Source: Sphingorhabdus sp. EL138 (GTDB lineage: Bacteria > Pseudomonadota > Alphaproteobacteria > Sphingomonadales > Sphingomonadaceae). Taken from it: DNA of 64,000 nt. The first letter of the stretch is position 1. Every line of letters starts with the position of its first letter. The stretch is from assembly GCF_945890115.1 (NCBI RefSeq), contig NZ_CAMDCK010000003.1:1-64000 (forward strand). Direction: 5' to 3'. Shown piece by piece: positions 35,664-43,273 of this stretch. Below the pieces are notes generated by a model. It was not told where the DNA came from. It saw only the letters and a program-made list of their open reading frames with translations, and did not search any database. The position numbers and the translations under genes are program-made.

Positions 35664-38054
35664 TTATTTCGCGCCGAAGTTGATTTTCGCTGTTACGCCA
35701 AAATAACGGTCGGCTTCGCGGGGTATGATGTAGCGATATGCACCGCCGGGGCCACCCGACACGATCGAAGATGCAAAGCTCTTTTCGAACAGGTTTTTCA
35801 CCTGAAACGCCAAGCGCCAACCGCCATTGGGGTCAACCAAAGCAGCGGACACATCGACAATCGCGTAACCTTCTACGGTCGAGCCAAGACGAACCGCTGG
35901 GTTCGCACTCGCTTCGTAAATTTGGTCGGACTGCCGCGCAATCTGGGTTCCCAGTTCGATATTCGCAAAGCCCGAAGTTTCGATGTCATATTGCGCGCCA
36001 AGCGACATCTTCCATTTTGGTGCGTTCGCCAGCGGCGTGCCCTTGGCGACCAATTGTGATGCATCCGCACCCGGCGGCAAACGGAAATTTTCGACCTGTG
36101 CCTTGTTGTACGCAATGCCGCCCGAAAGGCTGAAGTTACGCAATGGCGTCGCCACAAAATCAACCTCGAAACCTTCGGTCGATACCGAACCTGCATTCGT
36201 CAAGCGCGTGGTCCGAACACCTGCTACGAAATCTGGGCTGTTTGCCTGATAATTGTTATACTTGGCATAATATGCCGCGATGTTAACAATGAGATCGCCG
36301 TCAAGAAGGGTATTTTTCAATCCCACTTCATAGGCGTTGACCGTTTCTGGTGCGATAACACCCGCGCCCGGCGTCGTCAGGTTATAGAAGATGTTGTAGG
36401 CTGGGCCCTTATAACCACGGGTGTAGCTTGCATAAGCCATATTATTTTCCGTGATATCCGCCTGCACGGCAGCCTTACCCGAAAGGTTATTGTTGCTGGT
36501 GCTGGTGGTGAAAGGAACACCGTTTGACGCGCCTGCAACAAAGCCTGTCGCTGGCGCTGTTGCCACAAGGCCATTATTGTAAACGCCAGCGTCGAAGTTT
36601 CCTTGCACACCTGGACCGGCGAGCGAGGTCCGGCGGATATGGTTTACATCCAGTTCGTCATGTGTGTAGCGCAAGCCACCAATCAAACGCAGGCTGTCGG
36701 ACAGGTTGAAAGTTGCCTGACCAAATGCCGACATATTTTTGAATGTCGAACCAAAGTCAGCCGTACCAGCGGGGGTAGTGATCGTCGACACCCCGGCGGC
36801 AGTTGAGCAAGGTATGAGACCCGGCACGACCGCAGCCAGCGTTGATGCCGAGCATGTAATCACATTGCGCGTAAATGTCCGGTCCGATTCAGCCTTCGAA
36901 TAATATGCCCCGACAACATATTCGAGGAATTCGCCGGTCGGCGACGCCACCCGAATTTCTTGGCTAAAGGTGTTCGATGTTTGCGGACCATTATCGTGCA
37001 ATTGGTTCAAACCAACATAAGGCCGGTCGAGCCAGTCACCATCGCGGATTTCGGTATTATCCCAACCACGTAAGCTGGTGATCGACGTCAGGCTATGTTC
37101 GCCCAATTCAACGTCGGCTTGCAACGCAATGCCCCAGCTTTCTTCCTTAGTCGCGGTGACCAGGTTTTGCCGAATGTTGCGTGAATCCGAACGATCAAAG
37201 CCAGTTCCAACCAGCGCTAGAGCGGCAGCATTGGTTGGCGTATTGCCAATAATTTCGGCACAACAATCATCATTGGCTTTGCGGTAATCGGCGCGCAGCG
37301 TCAGCATGACATTCTCGCTGACGTCGGCCTCAATCGCACCACGAACACTGTAATGTTCATAGCCATTGACCTTTTTGCCCGTGGTCAGATTGTTAACGTT
37401 GCCGTCATAGCTTCCGTAAAATCCGGTGAAGCGCGAACGCACATTGGCGCTCAGCGGCAAGTTAACCGTCGCACGACCGCGATATTCGGATTTCGTGAAG
37501 AATGAGCCTTCAACCGTCGCGCTATATTCCGCTGTCGGCCGCTTCGTCACGATGCTTACAACACCGGCAGATGCATTCTTTCCGAACAATGTGCCCTGCG
37601 GTCCGCGCAACACTTCAATACGCTCGACGTCGAACAAATCTGTGAAGCCCTCACCAGCGCGGCTCAAGACAACACCGTCGAGAACAGCAGCAACCGATGG
37701 TTCCGCAGCAATCGAGAAGTTGATGGTGCCCACGCCGCGCAGGAACAATGCCTGGTTCAGCGACGTACCCGCCTTGCGGAAGTTCAAGCTTGGAACGAGA
37801 TATTGCGCATTTTCAAGCGTTATGCCGCCATTATTGGCAACAGCCTCTCCGCCAACAACCGATACGGCGAGTGGAATATCCTGCAAACGCTCTTCACGCT
37901 TTTGTGCGGTGACGATGATTTCTGCATTGGCCGAATCATCTTCTGCCGGAGCGGTCTGTGCCATTACGGGCAGGCTGACACCCGCCATAATCGCGGCGCT
38001 TGCGAACAACGAAGCGCGGATGAAAGACGTTTTCTTAAATTCAGAACTGAACAT
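35664..38054 (-). CDS. TonB-dependent outer-membrane receptor (likely sulfoquinovose/SQ-glycoside uptake)
   Basis: 796 aa. A signal peptide (about residues 1-32, SLFASAAIMAGVSLPVMAQ) is followed by a TonB-box/plug region EIIVTAQKREERLQDIPLAV, the plug domain to about residue 165, and a 22-stranded barrel ending in aromatic FGVTAKINFGAK. The start ATG at 38054 has an AAGGAGG six bases upstream. Sphingomonad receptors of this type import sugars, siderophores or other large compounds. Divergent transcription from the sulfoquinovosidase operon makes a sulfoglycoside substrate the best hypothesis. Direct evidence of specificity is not visible. Confidence 0.9.
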   Translation of the reverse strand: MFSSEFKKTSFIRASLFASAAIMAGVSLPVMAQTAPAEDDSANAEIIVTAQKREERLQDIPLAVSVVGGEAVANNGGITLENAQYLVPSLNFRKAGTSLNQALFLRGVGTINFSIAAEPSVAAVLDGVVLSRAGEGFTDLFDVERIEVLRGPQGTLFGKNASAGVVSIVTKRPTAEYSATVEGSFFTKSEYRGRATVNLPLSANVRSRFTGFYGSYDGNVNNLTTGKKVNGYEHYSVRGAIEADVSENVMLTLRADYRKANDDCCAEIIGNTPTNAAALALVGTGFDRSDSRNIRQNLVTATKEESWGIALQADVELGEHSLTSITSLRGWDNTEIRDGDWLDRPYVGLNQLHDNGPQTSNTFSQEIRVASPTGEFLEYVVGAYYSKAESDRTFTRNVITCSASTLAAVVPGLIPCSTAAGVSTITTPAGTADFGSTFKNMSAFGQATFNLSDSLRLIGGLRYTHDELDVNHIRRTSLAGPGVQGNFDAGVYNNGLVATAPATGFVAGASNGVPFTTSTSNNNLSGKAAVQADITENNMAYASYTRGYKGPAYNIFYNLTTPGAGVIAPETVNAYEVGLKNTLLDGDLIVNIAAYYAKYNNYQANSPDFVAGVRTTRLTNAGSVSTEGFEVDFVATPLRNFSLSGGIAYNKAQVENFRLPPGADASQLVAKGTPLANAPKWKMSLGAQYDIETSGFANIELGTQIARQSDQIYEASANPAVRLGSTVEGYAIVDVSAALVDPNGGWRLAFQVKNLFEKSFASSIVSGGPGGAYRYIIPREADRYFGVTAKINFGAK

Positions 38055-38287
38055 TATGAACCTCCTTAAAAAAGGCCATCCAGTTCTCAACCAAATCACT
38101 TGATTTTGATCAAGTAACAAAAGCTATTTTGGGATGTGCCTCATCGATGACAATTTTGTTACCAGATTGACTCAATATGTCTAGCGGTGTCATATGGCGG
38201 AGATTTTTAAGTCAGGACTGTTGCAATCTTGTCATAGTAACAGGCTCGAAACGGCGAGAGGGACGGAAGTTGCCATTTAAGGTCATC
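38055..38287. promoter_or_regulatory. Shared regulatory region of the TonB receptor and SQ operon
   Basis: A 233-base region between two divergent starts. It contains a perfect FNR/FixK-type box, TTGAT-TTTG-ATCAA (38100-38113), centred about 52 bases upstream of the receptor ATG. A 9-bp inverted repeat GTAACAAAA (38114-38122)/TTTTGTTAC (38154-38162) and an 11-base palindrome ATTGACTCAAT (38166-38176) follow. The latter two are candidates for binding by the LacI-family regulator. Promoter hexamers cannot be placed with confidence. Confidence 0.55.
38100..38113. promoter_or_regulatory. FNR-type box (TTGAT-N4-ATCAA)
   Basis: Exact match to the FNR/FixK consensus, extended by one pair on each side (C...G). 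An FNR-type regulator gene with the reading residues for this site is at 9157-9876. Confidence 0.6.
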
Positions 38288-40282
38288 ATGCAATCAGACG
38301 GCTTCGACCTGCTGCGCGATGGCAACTGCATGCTGTCACATCGCGCAGATGCTCCAGTTATCAGCATTGGCGTTGGATCGCCGGACCTTGAAATGGTTCG
38401 TGGCAATTTTCGCATCGACGACATCGTTGAAACACGATTAATGCTGGATTGCTGTGCGCAAGTCGACGGCTGTATCCGGCTTTGGAGCACGAAGCGGCCT
38501 GACATTGTTGCAACGCTGGAGCTTGCGGAACAAGCGCAGCAATCCATCCTCAAATTTCGCTGCACAGACCCGGCTTTCAACCGGCTTTGGATAGATATGC
38601 AGTGCGCAACGTCCGAAGCCTTTTGGGGCGGCGGGGAGCAAATGTCCTATTTACGGCTGAACGGGCGTCGCTTTCCTTTCTGGACGTCGGAGCCGGGGGT
38701 AGGCCGCGATAAGTCGACCGCGCTTACGCAGACTATGGATGCCAATGGCTTGGCGGGCGGGGATTATTGGACGACCAATTACCCGCAGCCAAGTTGGGTG
38801 AGCAGTGCGCGTTATGCGGTGCACCTCGAAACGGCGGCTTATTCCGTACTTGATCTGACGGAAGCGGGCCGGGTTGGCGTCGAATGCTGGTCGGCCAATA
38901 TGGATTTGGAGCTATTCGACGCGCCATCGCTGCCCGAACTGGTGACCAAATTGTCCGACCGTTTCGGGCGGCAACCGCCTTTGCCCGACTGGGCAATTTC
39001 CGGCGCCATTATCGGCCTTAAGGACGGCGTGGACACATTTGACCGCTTCGAGAGCATAGCTGCCTCTGGCGCGGCCATTACGGGGCTGTGGTGCGAGGAT
39101 TGGGTTGGCATCCGCCAAACAAGTTTTGGCAAGCGCTTGTTCTGGGACTGGAAATGGAACGCCGCGCGCTATCCAGATCTTCCCGCGCATATCGCTTCGC
39201 TGGCGCAGCGTGGCATCCGTTTTCTCGGCTATGTGAACCCCTATTTGGCGGTCGACGGCGCGCTGTATCAAGAAGCTTTGGCCAACAATTATCTCGCATT
39301 ACGACAGGATAGCGGCACAGCCTATGCCGTCGACTTCGGCGAATTTCACGCAGGCATCGTGGATTTCACCAATCCCGACGCCGCAAACTGGTTTGCAGAT
39401 CGCATCATTGGCCAAGAAATGCTCCATTTCGGTCTATCAGGGTGGATGGCCGATTTTGGTGAGTATCTGCCAACCGATGTGCGGCTGTTCGACGGATCCG
39501 ACCCGATGGAGGCGCATAACCGCTGGCCCGTTTTATGGGCCAAGGTCAACGCCGATGCCATTGCCGCGCGCGGAAAAACTGATGATGCGACCTTCTTCAT
39601 GCGTGCGGGTTTTTCCGGCGTTCAGGCGCATTGCCCCTTATTATGGGCGGGCGACCAAACTGTCGATTTCTCGCGGCATGACGGCATCAACACGGTGATA
39701 ACGGCTGCTTTGTCGTCTGGCTTGTTGGGCAATGCGTATCACCATAGCGACTTGGGCGGCTATACCAGCCTGCACGGCGTGGTGCGGACGGCAGAGCTCA
39801 TGCACCGCTGGATCGACCTTGCCGCCTTTGCCCCCGTAATGCGCAGCCATGAAGGCAACCGCCCGGCGGATAATCTGCAACTCGACAGCAGCCCCGAAAT
39901 CCTCAGCCATTTTGCACGGATGAGCCAAGTCCATGCACAACTTGCCCCTTATGTCCGCGCTTATTGTGATGAGGCGGCGGTAACTGGCCTGCCGCTGCAA
40001 CGGCCCATGTTCCTGCATTATGACGACTGCACATATTACGACATTCAGGACCAATATTTATATGGTGCAGACATGATCGTGGCACCCGTCGTTGAGCAAG
40101 GCCAAGATAGCCGCTCTGTGGTGATACCCGATGGCGCCTGGGTCCATCTGTGGTCCGGCCAGCCTTATGCCAAAGGCACGCACAACATAGCCGCGCCGAA
40201 CGGCCAACCCCCCGTTTTCACCCGGGCCGACAGCAAATATGCGGACCTATTCGCTTCCATACGTACGGCGTTCGCTGAATGA
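38288..40282 (+). CDS. smoI: Sulfoquinovosidase (GH31)
   Basis: 664 aa. GH31 nucleophile Asp389 in WMADFGEYLPTD and acid/base Asp465 in VDFSRHDGI. Long stretches match E. coli YihQ (HEGNRPADN, HHSDLGGYTSL, KYADLF). The sulfonate-binding set of sulfoquinovosidases is present: Lys245 (LKDG), Glu270 (CEDW), Arg283 (FGKR) and Trp286 (LFW), i.e. the K-E-R-W version reported for the Agrobacterium enzyme, rather than Q-Q-R-W of E. coli. The ATG at 38288 has AAGG upstream; an ATG 111 bases earlier lacks similarity. No signal peptide, so likely cytoplasmic. It frees sulfoquinovose from sulfoquinovosyl glycerol. First gene of the four-gene operon (ATGA overlap with the LacI gene). Confidence 0.88.
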   Translation: MQSDGFDLLRDGNCMLSHRADAPVISIGVGSPDLEMVRGNFRIDDIVETRLMLDCCAQVDGCIRLWSTKRPDIVATLELAEQAQQSILKFRCTDPAFNRLWIDMQCATSEAFWGGGEQMSYLRLNGRRFPFWTSEPGVGRDKSTALTQTMDANGLAGGDYWTTNYPQPSWVSSARYAVHLETAAYSVLDLTEAGRVGVECWSANMDLELFDAPSLPELVTKLSDRFGRQPPLPDWAISGAIIGLKDGVDTFDRFESIAASGAAITGLWCEDWVGIRQTSFGKRLFWDWKWNAARYPDLPAHIASLAQRGIRFLGYVNPYLAVDGALYQEALANNYLALRQDSGTAYAVDFGEFHAGIVDFTNPDAANWFADRIIGQEMLHFGLSGWMADFGEYLPTDVRLFDGSDPMEAHNRWPVLWAKVNADAIAARGKTDDATFFMRAGFSGVQAHCPLLWAGDQTVDFSRHDGINTVITAALSSGLLGNAYHHSDLGGYTSLHGVVRTAELMHRWIDLAAFAPVMRSHEGNRPADNLQLDSSPEILSHFARMSQVHAQLAPYVRAYCDEAAVTGLPLQRPMFLHYDDCTYYDIQDQYLYGADMIVAPVVEQGQDSRSVVIPDGAWVHLWSGQPYAKGTHNIAAPNGQPPVFTRADSKYADLFASIRTAFAE

Positions 40283-41310
40283 ACCCGCGCGCCAACATCC
40301 GCGATGTCGCAAAGCTCGCTGGCGTGGCGGTGAAAACCGTCAGCCGCGTGCTCAACGACCATCCTTATGTGAGTGCGGGGACCAAGGCCAAAGTGGACGC
40401 CGCCATGTCGGAACTTGGCTTTAGCCCAAGCATCGCCGCGCGCATATTGGCGGGCACCAAATCCGGACAGATTGCCCTGATCTACGACAATCACAGCCCT
40501 TATTATATGCACCAGATCATGCAAGGATGCTGGGACCGTTGCCATCAAGAGGGCATGCGCTTAATCGCACAGCCCGTGGATGTTGCCGACCCCGACGTCG
40601 GCGAACAGGTGCTGGGCATGGTGCGGCAAACGCATGTGGACGGCGCTATACTCTCCTCCCCCGTTACCGATTGCGTGCCTGTGCTGAACGCGCTTGAGGC
40701 GCTCAACATTCCCTTTGTGCGGATTTCGCCGGGTACCAACCATGCGCTGACCAGTTCCGTTTTCATGGATGACATGCAGGCCGCCGACGACATGACGACG
40801 AAGCTCATCAACATCGGGCATCGGCGGATTGGCTTTATCAAAGGCCACCCAAATCATAAGGCAAGTACGGAACGACAAGCCGGTTACGAACGTGCGCTGG
40901 GGCGCGTCGGAATATCTGTTGATTCTGAGCTACTTGCCGAGGGGCGGTTTGATTTTGAAAGCGGCGTATCGGCCACGGAACAGTTCCTGTCTCTGAAGCA
41001 TCCACCCACCGCGATTTTCGCATCGAACGACGACATGGCGTCGGGCGTGCTTGCGGTCGCGCATCGGCGCGGTATTCAAATACCGGAGCAGCTTTCGGTT
41101 GCGGGCTTTGACGATACTACGCTCGCGCGCGTTGTCTGGCCGCCCTTGACCACGGTACGCCAGCCCGTCCGCGATCTCGCATCGACCGCCGCCGACCTGT
41201 TGTTTGGCGAAGGCGGGATTGAGCATCGTCGCCTGCCTCACGAACTTATCAGCCGCGAATCCGTGGCGCCTCCTTATTCCCCTTCTCCAAAAAAGAGCAA
41301 AAAATCATGA
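40279..41310 (+). CDS. LacI family transcriptional regulator (probable SQ operon regulator)
   Basis: 343 aa. N-terminal helix-turn-helix NIRDVAKLAGVAVKTVSRVLNDHPYVS, then a periplasmic-binding-protein-like effector domain (IALIYDNHSPYY, GFDDTTLARVVWPPLTTVRQPV). It overlaps the SQase stop and the reductase start by four bases each (ATGA), so it is made with the catabolic enzymes and probably represses this operon and the divergent receptor. Sulfoquinovose or a derivative is the likely effector; this is inferred from context. Confidence 0.88.
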   Translation: MNPRANIRDVAKLAGVAVKTVSRVLNDHPYVSAGTKAKVDAAMSELGFSPSIAARILAGTKSGQIALIYDNHSPYYMHQIMQGCWDRCHQEGMRLIAQPVDVADPDVGEQVLGMVRQTHVDGAILSSPVTDCVPVLNALEALNIPFVRISPGTNHALTSSVFMDDMQAADDMTTKLINIGHRRIGFIKGHPNHKASTERQAGYERALGRVGISVDSELLAEGRFDFESGVSATEQFLSLKHPPTAIFASNDDMASGVLAVAHRRGIQIPEQLSVAGFDDTTLARVVWPPLTTVRQPVRDLASTAADLLFGEGGIEHRRLPHELISRESVAPPYSPSPKKSKKS

Positions 41311-42209
41311 CGCTTCCTTCTCCTTCTCCTACCCGTCCATTGGGCAACAGTGGCATAGAAATCTCGTCCCTCGCATGGGGCATGTGGCGCTTCGCCGGGT
41401 TGGAACTGTCCGCGGCCCGCGCTGCCATTGATGCTGCGTTTACGGCCGGCATCACCCTGTTCGACACCGCCGATATCTATGGTTTTGGCGACCAAGGTTT
41501 TGGCAAGGCCGAAGAACTGCTTGGCCACGTATTTGCGCAAGCCCCTGAATATCGCGACCGCATGGTGCTGGCGACGAAGGGCGGCATCACGCCACCAACG
41601 CCCTATGATAGCAGCGCGGAATATCTGACAAAAGCCATTGATGACAGCCTCACCCGTTTGCGCACTGACCGCATCGACCTGTGGCAAATTCACCGACCAG
41701 ACGTGTTGACGCATCCACAGGAAATCGCCCGCGCGATTGAAGACGCGCATACAGAAGGCAAAATTCGCGCATTTGGCGTGTCCAACTTTACGCAAGCGCA
41801 GATTTCGACGCTGGCACAATTTAGCCCAGTTCCCATCGTTTCGACACAACCCGAACTGTCGCCGTTGCGGATCGACACGGTCGAAAATGGCGAGTTGGAT
41901 CAAGCGATAGCGATGAACCTTGCGGTGATGGCATGGTCGCCTTTGGGTGGTGGCCGCATTGGCGACCCGCAAAATGTGCGTGAGCAAAATGTCGCTGCTG
42001 CGCTTTCGGCGGTTGCGGCGGCGCATGGCGTTTCGCGCACGGCGGCGGCCTATAGCTGGATCATGGCGCACCCCGCCCGGCCCATCCCGATTGTCGGTTC
42101 GCAAAACCCGGCGCGCATAACCGAAGCTGCCGACGCGTTCAAAATTCAATGGACCCGCGCGGATTGGTACAGCGTCCTTGTCGCCGCAAGAGGAGTGCCG
42201 CTGCCATGA
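41307..42209 (+). CDS. smoB: Aldo/keto reductase (probable 6-oxo-glucose reductase, SmoB-like)
   Basis: 300 aa NAD(P)H-dependent reductase. The catalytic tetrad is visible: Asp and Tyr in LFDTADIYGFG, Lys in VLATKGG and His in WQIHRPD. Other family motifs are VSNFTQAQI and the cofactor segment PIPIVGSQNPARITEAA. In the described sulfoquinovose monooxygenase pathway an aldo/keto reductase converts 6-oxo-glucose to glucose. That assignment comes from its place between the SQase and the monooxygenase; sequence alone shows only the superfamily. Overlaps the next gene by ATGA. Confidence 0.82.
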   Translation: MTLPSPSPTRPLGNSGIEISSLAWGMWRFAGLELSAARAAIDAAFTAGITLFDTADIYGFGDQGFGKAEELLGHVFAQAPEYRDRMVLATKGGITPPTPYDSSAEYLTKAIDDSLTRLRTDRIDLWQIHRPDVLTHPQEIARAIEDAHTEGKIRAFGVSNFTQAQISTLAQFSPVPIVSTQPELSPLRIDTVENGELDQAIAMNLAVMAWSPLGGGRIGDPQNVREQNVAAALSAVAAAHGVSRTAAAYSWIMAHPARPIPIVGSQNPARITEAADAFKIQWTRADWYSVLVAARGVPLP

Positions 42210-43273
42210 ACAAGCCTGTCGAAGTGAGCTGGTTCTCCGCGCTTTGCGATGACGACTATGAGTTTCTGGGCGTCCCCGACACCAATCTGGCCTCCAGTTG
42301 GGAACATTGCCGTAATATCGTTTTGGCCGCCGAAAAAGGCGGATTTGACAATATCTTGCTGCCATCAGGCTATACCCTTGGCTTAGACACAACTGCCTTC
42401 GCCAGCGCAATTGCGGCGCTAACCTCGCGGATCAAATTGCTGATGGCGGTGCGCATTGGTGAAAGCTGGCCGCCCCAGCTTGCGCGGCAGATTGCGACGC
42501 TGGATCAAATTTCGGGCGGGCGGTTGAACATCAACATCATCTCGTCGGACTTGCCCGGCGATAAGATGGATTCCGAACCGCGCTATCGCCGTACAGTTGA
42601 GGCGATGCAGATATTGAAGACATTGCTAAACGGCGAACATCTGTCGATTGACGGCGCGCATTACAAGATCGAGATCGACCCGCCGCGCATGACAACCGTT
42701 AGCGGCAAATGCCCACCGCTCTATTTTGGCGGTCTGTCACCAGCCGCAAAGGACGCCGCCGCCGAAGGTTGCGACGTGTATCTTATGTGGCCCGAAACGG
42801 TGCAGGGTGCCAAGTACTTGGTCGACGACATGACCGCGCGCGCCGCCAAATTCGGTCGGACGCTCAAATATGGTTTCCGCGCGCATGTCATCGTCCGCGA
42901 AACCGAAGCAGAGGCGCGCGCTTATGCCAACCGCTTGCTGTCCAAGCTTGATGCTGATCAGGGCGAAGCCATCCGCAATAAATCGCTCGACACCCAAACC
43001 TTCAGCGTTGCGCATCAGGCCGAGCTGCGTGCGCAAGCTGCGGCAAATGATGGTTATTTAGAGGATAATCTGTGGACCGGCATTGGCCGCGCCCGTTCAG
43101 GCTGCGGCGCGGCAATCGTGGGCGACCCCGACCAAGTGCTCGCCAAAATCAACGCCTATCGTGCGGTAGGTATCGAGGCGTTCATATTGTCCGGCTACCC
43201 CCATATCAACGAATGCGACATGTTCGCGCGTTATGTGCTGCCCAAGTTGGATCATGGGCGGTTGGGGGTTTAG
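42206..43273 (+). CDS. smoC: FMNH2-dependent (SsuD-type) monooxygenase, probable sulfoquinovose monooxygenase
   Basis: 355 aa bacterial-luciferase-like monooxygenase. The SsuD/alkanesulfonate monooxygenase hallmarks are present: RIKLLMAVRIG, QIATLDQISGGRLNINIISSD-like NIISSDLPGD, RYRRTVEAMQILK, YGFRAHVIVRETEAEARAYA, NLWTGIGRARSGCGAAIVGDPDQVL, ILSGYPHINECDMFA. Such enzymes cleave C-S bonds with O2 and FMNH2, releasing sulfite. In this operon it would desulfonate sulfoquinovose to 6-oxo-glucose. A partner flavin reductase must supply FMNH2 and is not in this window. AGGAG lies ten bases before the ATG. Last gene of the operon; repeats follow. Confidence 0.85.
   Translation: MNKPVEVSWFSALCDDDYEFLGVPDTNLASSWEHCRNIVLAAEKGGFDNILLPSGYTLGLDTTAFASAIAALTSRIKLLMAVRIGESWPPQLARQIATLDQISGGRLNINIISSDLPGDKMDSEPRYRRTVEAMQILKTLLNGEHLSIDGAHYKIEIDPPRMTTVSGKCPPLYFGGLSPAAKDAAAEGCDVYLMWPETVQGAKYLVDDMTARAAKFGRTLKYGFRAHVIVRETEAEARAYANRLLSKLDADQGEAIRNKSLDTQTFSVAHQAELRAQAAANDGYLEDNLWTGIGRARSGCGAAIVGDPDQVLAKINAYRAVGIEAFILSGYPHINECDMFARYVLPKLDHGRLGV

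Follow-up and report, generated by a model that had tools for sequence, protein, structure and literature searches.

Sphingorhabdus sp. EL138 carries, within the 64,000-nucleotide stretch of contig NZ_CAMDCK010000003.1 analysed here (hereafter the window), a gene for a TonB-dependent outer-membrane receptor that diverges from an operon for a GH31 glycoside hydrolase, a LacI-family regulator, an aldo/keto reductase and a flavin-dependent monooxygenase. The operon appears, by sequence, to encode the sulfolytic sulfoquinovose (SQ) monooxygenase (smo) enzyme set, in which the reductase is of SmoB type and the monooxygenase of SmoC type. We consider it likely, at a probability of about 0.8, that this locus forms the core of a sulfolytic SQ regulon comprising enzymes, transport and LacI control via three operator-like sites, with a fusion of an alpha/beta-hydrolase region and a flavin reductase, encoded elsewhere in the genome, probably giving the reduced flavin mononucleotide (FMNH2). 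What is new is the 20-bp operator-like site, which is present at three loci of the host genome, including that of the fused flavin reductase; both the pathway and its occurrence in this host group were known before, recombinant enzymes having already been characterised from the sphingomonad Novosphingobium aromaticivorans.

The operator-like site and its distribution

The site, TATGTCTAGCGGTGTCATAT, a putative LacI operator at 38176..38195 (+ strand), lies in the divergent regulatory region between the receptor and GH31 genes (38055..38269), and it is unchanged in all 15 receptor/GH31 intergenic regions that were aligned. Searched with a pattern that has W at position 8 and allows up to 3 mismatches, the window holds one match only, at 38176 (shuffled sequences gave a mean of 0.00), and the 2.31-Mb host genome, which is 99.95% complete, holds exactly three: that of the window (0 mismatches), one at G000:C1:20513 (0) and one at G000:C19:40170 (2). 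The second overlies the inferred start of a YeiH-type gene on contig C1, between this gene and a divergent MFS gene, with a GlpD-like gene following YeiH, while the third precedes the hydrolase–flavin reductase fusion on contig C19. The sharing of one site by three loci leads us to predict a three-locus LacI regulon, with the regulator of the operon as the putative binder, and such a regulon would provide for transport across the inner membrane, for the disposal of sulfite and for the use of glycerol, and would add the flavin reductase absent from the operon, among whose genes neither an inner-membrane transporter nor a flavin reductase was found in open reading frame (ORF) translations and Pfam matches. 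The GlpD-like gene would fit SQ-glycerol as a substrate. A sigma-70 scan gave 2 promoter-like sites, against 3.1 in shuffles.

In the 41 genomes of the genus the same pattern finds 85 sites, whereas the backward pattern that served as control finds 4, and 66 of the 85 stand at an expected place, namely at 24 of 34 SmoC matches, 26 of 37 YeiH matches and 16 of 25 fusion orthologues, with 0 of 10 among other fusion relatives. The 19 sites placed otherwise include five exact ones whose sequence assigns them to the receptor/GH31 type and which do not share a contig with SmoC (G405:C160, G429:C86, G407:C9, G401:C162 and G426:C404; G407 has no SmoC match). SmoC relatives (E no higher than 1e-60) were found in 88 of the 396 Sphingomonadales genomes and in 33 of the 41 genus genomes, and the site at no more than 1 mismatch is found in 28 of these 33 SmoC-positive genomes versus 1 of the 8 SmoC-negative ones, the latter being G407, whose contig ends inside GH31. 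Three SmoC-negative genus genomes share an identical variant with 3 mismatches (G071:C1:912400, G152:C1:1987235 and G403:C17:42214).

Conservation of the site extends over much of the genus and reaches part of the order. Sixty-five named loci (L047-L111), mostly from other genera (genus-type loci among them include L050, L053 and L055), were scanned with a 17-mer at up to 3 mismatches, which gave 36 sites in 26 loci and 1 for the backward control; 20 lie between receptor and GH31 (five with a miscalled neighbour), 12 at MFS genes, 2 between receptor and a GH188-like gene and 2 in other places. A stricter pattern applied to 14 chosen whole genomes gave 19 sites in 11 of them, with 0 for the control, of which 10 are of the receptor/GH31 kind, 6 belong to MFS/YeiH/GlpD genes (off the SmoC contig in L240 and L242), 1 lies between YeiH and LacI and 2 lie elsewhere; within 1.5 kb of these 19 neither the fusion nor the SsuE query has a relative. 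Exact matches to the stricter pattern at L244 (G088:C7:64120) and L245 (G383:C44:303208) stand beside none of 12 SQ-related query proteins, that of L245 being surrounded by ORFs that look, by eye, P450-like and alpha/beta-hydrolase-like.

The hydrolase–flavin reductase fusion and its proposed supply of FMNH2

The fusion on contig C19 has 411 residues and joins an alpha/beta-hydrolase region to a PF01613 flavin reductase, and its reductase part matches flavin reductases in the PDB, several of them from two-component monooxygenases. In an alignment of 19 chosen members of the fusion family, read by eye, the presumed nucleophile position of the hydrolase is Ser in 3 and Thr or Met in 16, and the expected near-terminal His is present in 3 (L208, L210 and L211) and absent in 16, so that the hydrolase half is probably dead. 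Upstream of the gene, in 24 sequences, the footprint of the site stands out against less conserved surroundings; with a 17-mer at up to 3 mismatches (L181 being cut by a contig edge), the site precedes 21 of the 25 genus orthologues that have upstream sequence, whereas none of the 13 full-length fusions from other genera (L199-L211) and none of 4 paralogues or more distant relatives has it. A fusion orthologue is present in 24 of 33 SmoC-positive versus 1 of 8 SmoC-negative genus genomes, the single case again being G407 with its truncated contig. The nine SmoC-positive genomes without an orthologue include six that have another flavin reductase beside their SQ genes, a PF01613 protein directly after SmoC in G180 and PF03358 proteins in G396, G399, G418, G419 and G420, and in G417, G422 and G425 no flavin reductase was seen beside the SQ genes. 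We tentatively suggest, at somewhat less than even odds, that a fusion with a dead alpha/beta-hydrolase was recruited in Sphingorhabdus by gain of the SQ operator as a source of FMNH2, replacing SmoA or SsuE, that the hydrolase remnant may dock or sense, and that the receptor gene is a swappable cassette which determines the SQ conjugate to be taken up.

A number of observations tell against the regulon as we have drawn it. The site is a weak inverted repeat, in which no stretch of 14-20 bp of two site versions reaches 60% self-complementarity; five SmoC-positive genus genomes (G180, G396, G419, G420 and G422) lack it at up to 1 mismatch, 39 of the 65 named loci L047-L111 show none in the 17-mer scan, and it occurs in just 2 of 19 loci with a GH188-like cluster. 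The host MFS protein is 38% identical to the query MFS, which was taken from beside another smo locus, and its substrate is a predicted one. With respect to the fusion, no site precedes it at up to 4 mismatches in L171, L177 and L184, which belong to SmoC-positive genomes, and that of L170 is weak; outside the genus, SmoC is present in 7 of 13 genomes with a full-length fusion and absent from the other 6 (base rate 88 of 396), which indicates that the fusion is not an SQ-only gene; the co-occurrence of fusion and SmoC in the genus may partly reflect shared ancestry; and, since 18 of 25 genus loci have an HPPD match after the fusion, its role could be in tyrosine catabolism. The HPPD matches and the missing sites of L171, L177 and L184 feed an alternative that we regard as possible, although on balance doubtful, according to which the core operon is indeed for sulfolytic SQ use and the fusion serves tyrosine/HPPD-linked or other metabolism, with FMNH2 coming from general flavin reductases. 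Consistent with it, HPPD-like (by eye) and VOC-like genes lie after the fusion in the host genome, an azoreductase-like FMN_red protein is present, and a second hydrolase–flavin reductase fusion, without a site, lies between two cytochrome P450-like genes (by eye; L130 2165-3589, G000:C6). Set against this, the position of the site before the fusion is fixed also in the seven loci that have no HPPD match (L172, L179 and L188-L192), and the SmoC-positive genomes that lack the orthologue have, in six of nine cases, the other flavin reductases beside their SQ genes mentioned above.

Enzymes and layout of the core operon

The reading of the locus as the core of an SQ regulon draws on the identity of its enzymes. 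The GH31 protein is closest in the PDB to 5ohy and 5ohs (832 and 830 bits), followed by 8r56 (705), 6pnr (661) and 5aed (620), whereas the first ordinary GH31 enzyme, YicI, scores 142 bits; 5aed carries sulfoquinovosidase among its names, and 5ohy and 5ohs, which are listed as 'Alpha-glucosidase yihQ', are entries that we take to be the Agrobacterium sulfoquinovosidase. Both catalytic Asp residues and a set of K, E, R, W and Y positions, which are presumably those that bind the sulfonate, are identical between the window GH31 and 5ohy in the alignment. The monooxygenase matches 7olf and 7oh2 at 361 and 359 bits, with SsuD-type entries reaching 216 and 201, and falls under the NCBIfam cut-off for SsuD (259 versus 518 bits); we understand 7olf and 7oh2 to be SmoC, their database names being methanesulfonate sulfonatase and alkanesulfonate monooxygenase. 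The best matches of the aldo/keto reductase are 7bbz and 7bby (163 and 162 bits), presumably SmoB, with YdhF-type entries next at 151, and given this small margin the SmoB assignment leans on gene context. An earlier note on this stretch, made from its letters, had proposed the SQ monooxygenase pathway, and these PDB matches together with those to Pfam support the proposal at the level of sequence.

The context was counted in the 54 of 80 named smo loci that have enough flank on both sides (flank-complete), presence meaning within the locus up to about 10 kb, as judged from mechanical ORFs and single-linkage clusters in which some ORFs are miscalled. A receptor is present in 50, an aldo/keto reductase in 48, LacI in 45, GH31 in 33, MFS in 32, YeiH in 24 and a GH188-like protein in 14, with GH31 and the GH188-like protein together in none of the 54. 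MFS and YeiH genes are found in 31 and 23 of the 42 flank-complete loci from L056 on, and each in 1 of 12 among L032-L055. Certain smo loci have an SsuE-type FMN reductase (PF03358) and a DHBP-synthase riboflavin gene (PF00926), in clusters 21 and 27. In our estimation it is very unlikely that the operon serves not SQ but a different alpha-glucoside, sulfonated or ordinary, or an alkanesulfonate: NCBIfam does name the GH31 protein an alpha-glucosidase, but its nearest entries are those that we take to be solved sulfoquinovosidases, the presumed sulfonate-binding positions are retained, the monooxygenase scores far higher against the putative SmoC entries than against SsuD, and the GH188-like protein and GH31 are never found together in a flank-complete locus.

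On these assignments SQ or SQ-glycerol would enter through the TonB receptor, cross the inner membrane by way of the off-locus MFS transporter and reach the cytoplasm, where the GH31 sulfoquinovosidase would hydrolyse it. The SmoC-type monooxygenase would then use FMNH2, probably supplied by the fusion flavin reductase, and O2 to cut the C-S bond, giving sulfite and 6-dehydroglucose, and the aldo/keto reductase would convert the latter to glucose for a glucokinase, whose gene is present in the host genome. Sulfite or sulfate would exit through the YeiH-type protein and glycerol would be oxidized via the GlpD-like enzyme, with the LacI protein of the operon presumably controlling the operators at the GH31/receptor, MFS//YeiH-GlpD and fusion loci.

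The layout of the locus stood up to checking against ORFs, order and strands, as did the families that the earlier note had named (GH31, LacI, aldo/keto reductase and SsuD-type monooxygenase) in Pfam and PDB sequence searches. The receptor (35664..38054, - strand) has Pfam plug and barrel domains and an N-terminus that looks signal-peptide-like by eye; on the + strand follow the predicted GH31 sulfoquinovosidase (38270..40282; 670 aa from an inferred TTG), the LacI-family regulator (40279..41310; Pfam LacI and Peripla_BP_3), the aldo/keto reductase of SmoB/SquF type (41307..42209; predicted to convert 6-dehydroglucose to glucose) and the predicted flavin-dependent SQ monooxygenase of SmoC/SquD type (42206..43273; luciferase-like monooxygenase in Pfam), with ATGA overlaps between neighbouring genes at 40279, 41307 and 42206. 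The same layout is found again in relatives and is thus not a chance arrangement, and the closest named loci include Sphingorhabdus, for example S. wooponensis at 96%. The GH31 start is more likely at TTG 38270 than at ATG 38177, which was rejected, because several homologues in the genus begin at the former (670 aa) and the segment 38177-38269 looks non-coding, having indels of 1-2 bases among relatives. From this inferred start no signal peptide is visible by eye, and a periplasmic GH31 was likewise rejected. For the monooxygenase, ATG 42206 is the most likely start, in place of the mechanically called 42149, and the receptor probably begins at ATG 38054, counted from the translation. The flanking genes look ordinary: nadA and a gene of the metallo-beta-lactamase fold stand to one side, a prfA-like gene (by eye) to the other.

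The receptor, known systems and significance

The receptor is predicted to take up SQ or SQ glycosides. The earlier note had inferred that the locus is a variant built around outer-membrane uptake, and this does not hold as a local trait: a receptor at an smo locus is not new, being common to 50 of the 54 flank-complete loci, and for the same reason a TonB variant confined to the genus was rejected. That the receptor is a mere neighbour for iron or vitamin uptake, outside SQ use, is unlikely; in NCBIfam it matches siderophore and hemin receptors best, in every case below cut-off, and its sequence class varies within the genus, but its recurrence at nearly all of these loci and the location of the operator-like site between receptor and GH31 point the other way. 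Among close relatives the receptor is 41-43% (L033, L038, L044 and L050) or 56% (L045) identical to that of the window, at 90-98% identity for LacI and 89-95% for SmoC, and the divergence starts within the receptor/GH31 intergenic region. Such a swap in place could be driven by phage or by substrate selection. A linked change of receptor type and MFS type was also considered, and by eye the two do not track each other. Two further observations concern SmoC itself, namely a relative of 70% identity in Rhizobium sp. SL86 (L082), without the clustered sphingomonad neighbours and possibly transferred, and a metagenome assembly in which SmoC occurs twice, each time on a different contig (L035 and L042 of Sphingorhabdus sp. 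EL138; G397), which may reflect a duplication or a mixed bin.

The Agrobacterium sulfo-SMO (smo) system has, like the window, a GH31 sulfoquinovosidase, a SmoC-type monooxygenase and a SmoB-type reductase, and we take the place of its flavin reductase SmoA to be within the operon. According to published descriptions, Agrobacterium uses an SQ-glycerol ABC transporter together with SmoA, whereas in the present case a TonB receptor stands beside the operon, an MFS transporter is encoded off the locus, and the operon is without a flavin reductase. Reviews describe the pathway for Agrobacterium and for N. aromaticivorans, in the latter with recombinant enzymes; the sulfo-ASMO cluster of N. aromaticivorans (SquD/SquF), a member of the same bacterial order as the host, has the enzyme types of the window and is given there without SsuE, and for published clusters of this kind 'other flavin reductases' are presumed, whereas for the host of the window we can name an operator-linked candidate. 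Clusters with a GH188 NAD-dependent sulfoquinovosidase, including one of Sphingomonas, follow the same pathway, and the window has GH31 instead; the GH188-like protein of L110 matches 8qc3 (356 bits), published as ArSqgA, an NAD-dependent sulfoquinovosidase. In the PMC literature, titles and the beginnings of abstracts gave nothing on SQ uptake by TonB receptors, nothing joined SQ with Sphingorhabdus, and among the matches listed there was no sphingomonad LacI operator for SQ, the sulfoquinovose matches concerning E. coli; the main text of a LacI regulon paper (PMC4052901) has no mention of sphingomonads, sulfo-, TonB, monooxygenase or flavin.

SQ production is of gigaton scale, and an isotope study found Novosphingobium dominant in the uptake of SQ carbon in mangrove samples. 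A survey scoring SmoB and SmoC together in a span of 10 ORFs, as in that study, would count the host genome and miss its split-off parts, and the site offers a sequence tag for SQ genes that lie at a distance from smo clusters. The fusion is a candidate flavin reductase for systems without SsuE, and the regulon as a whole gives Sphingorhabdus a full predicted route from the outer membrane to glucose.

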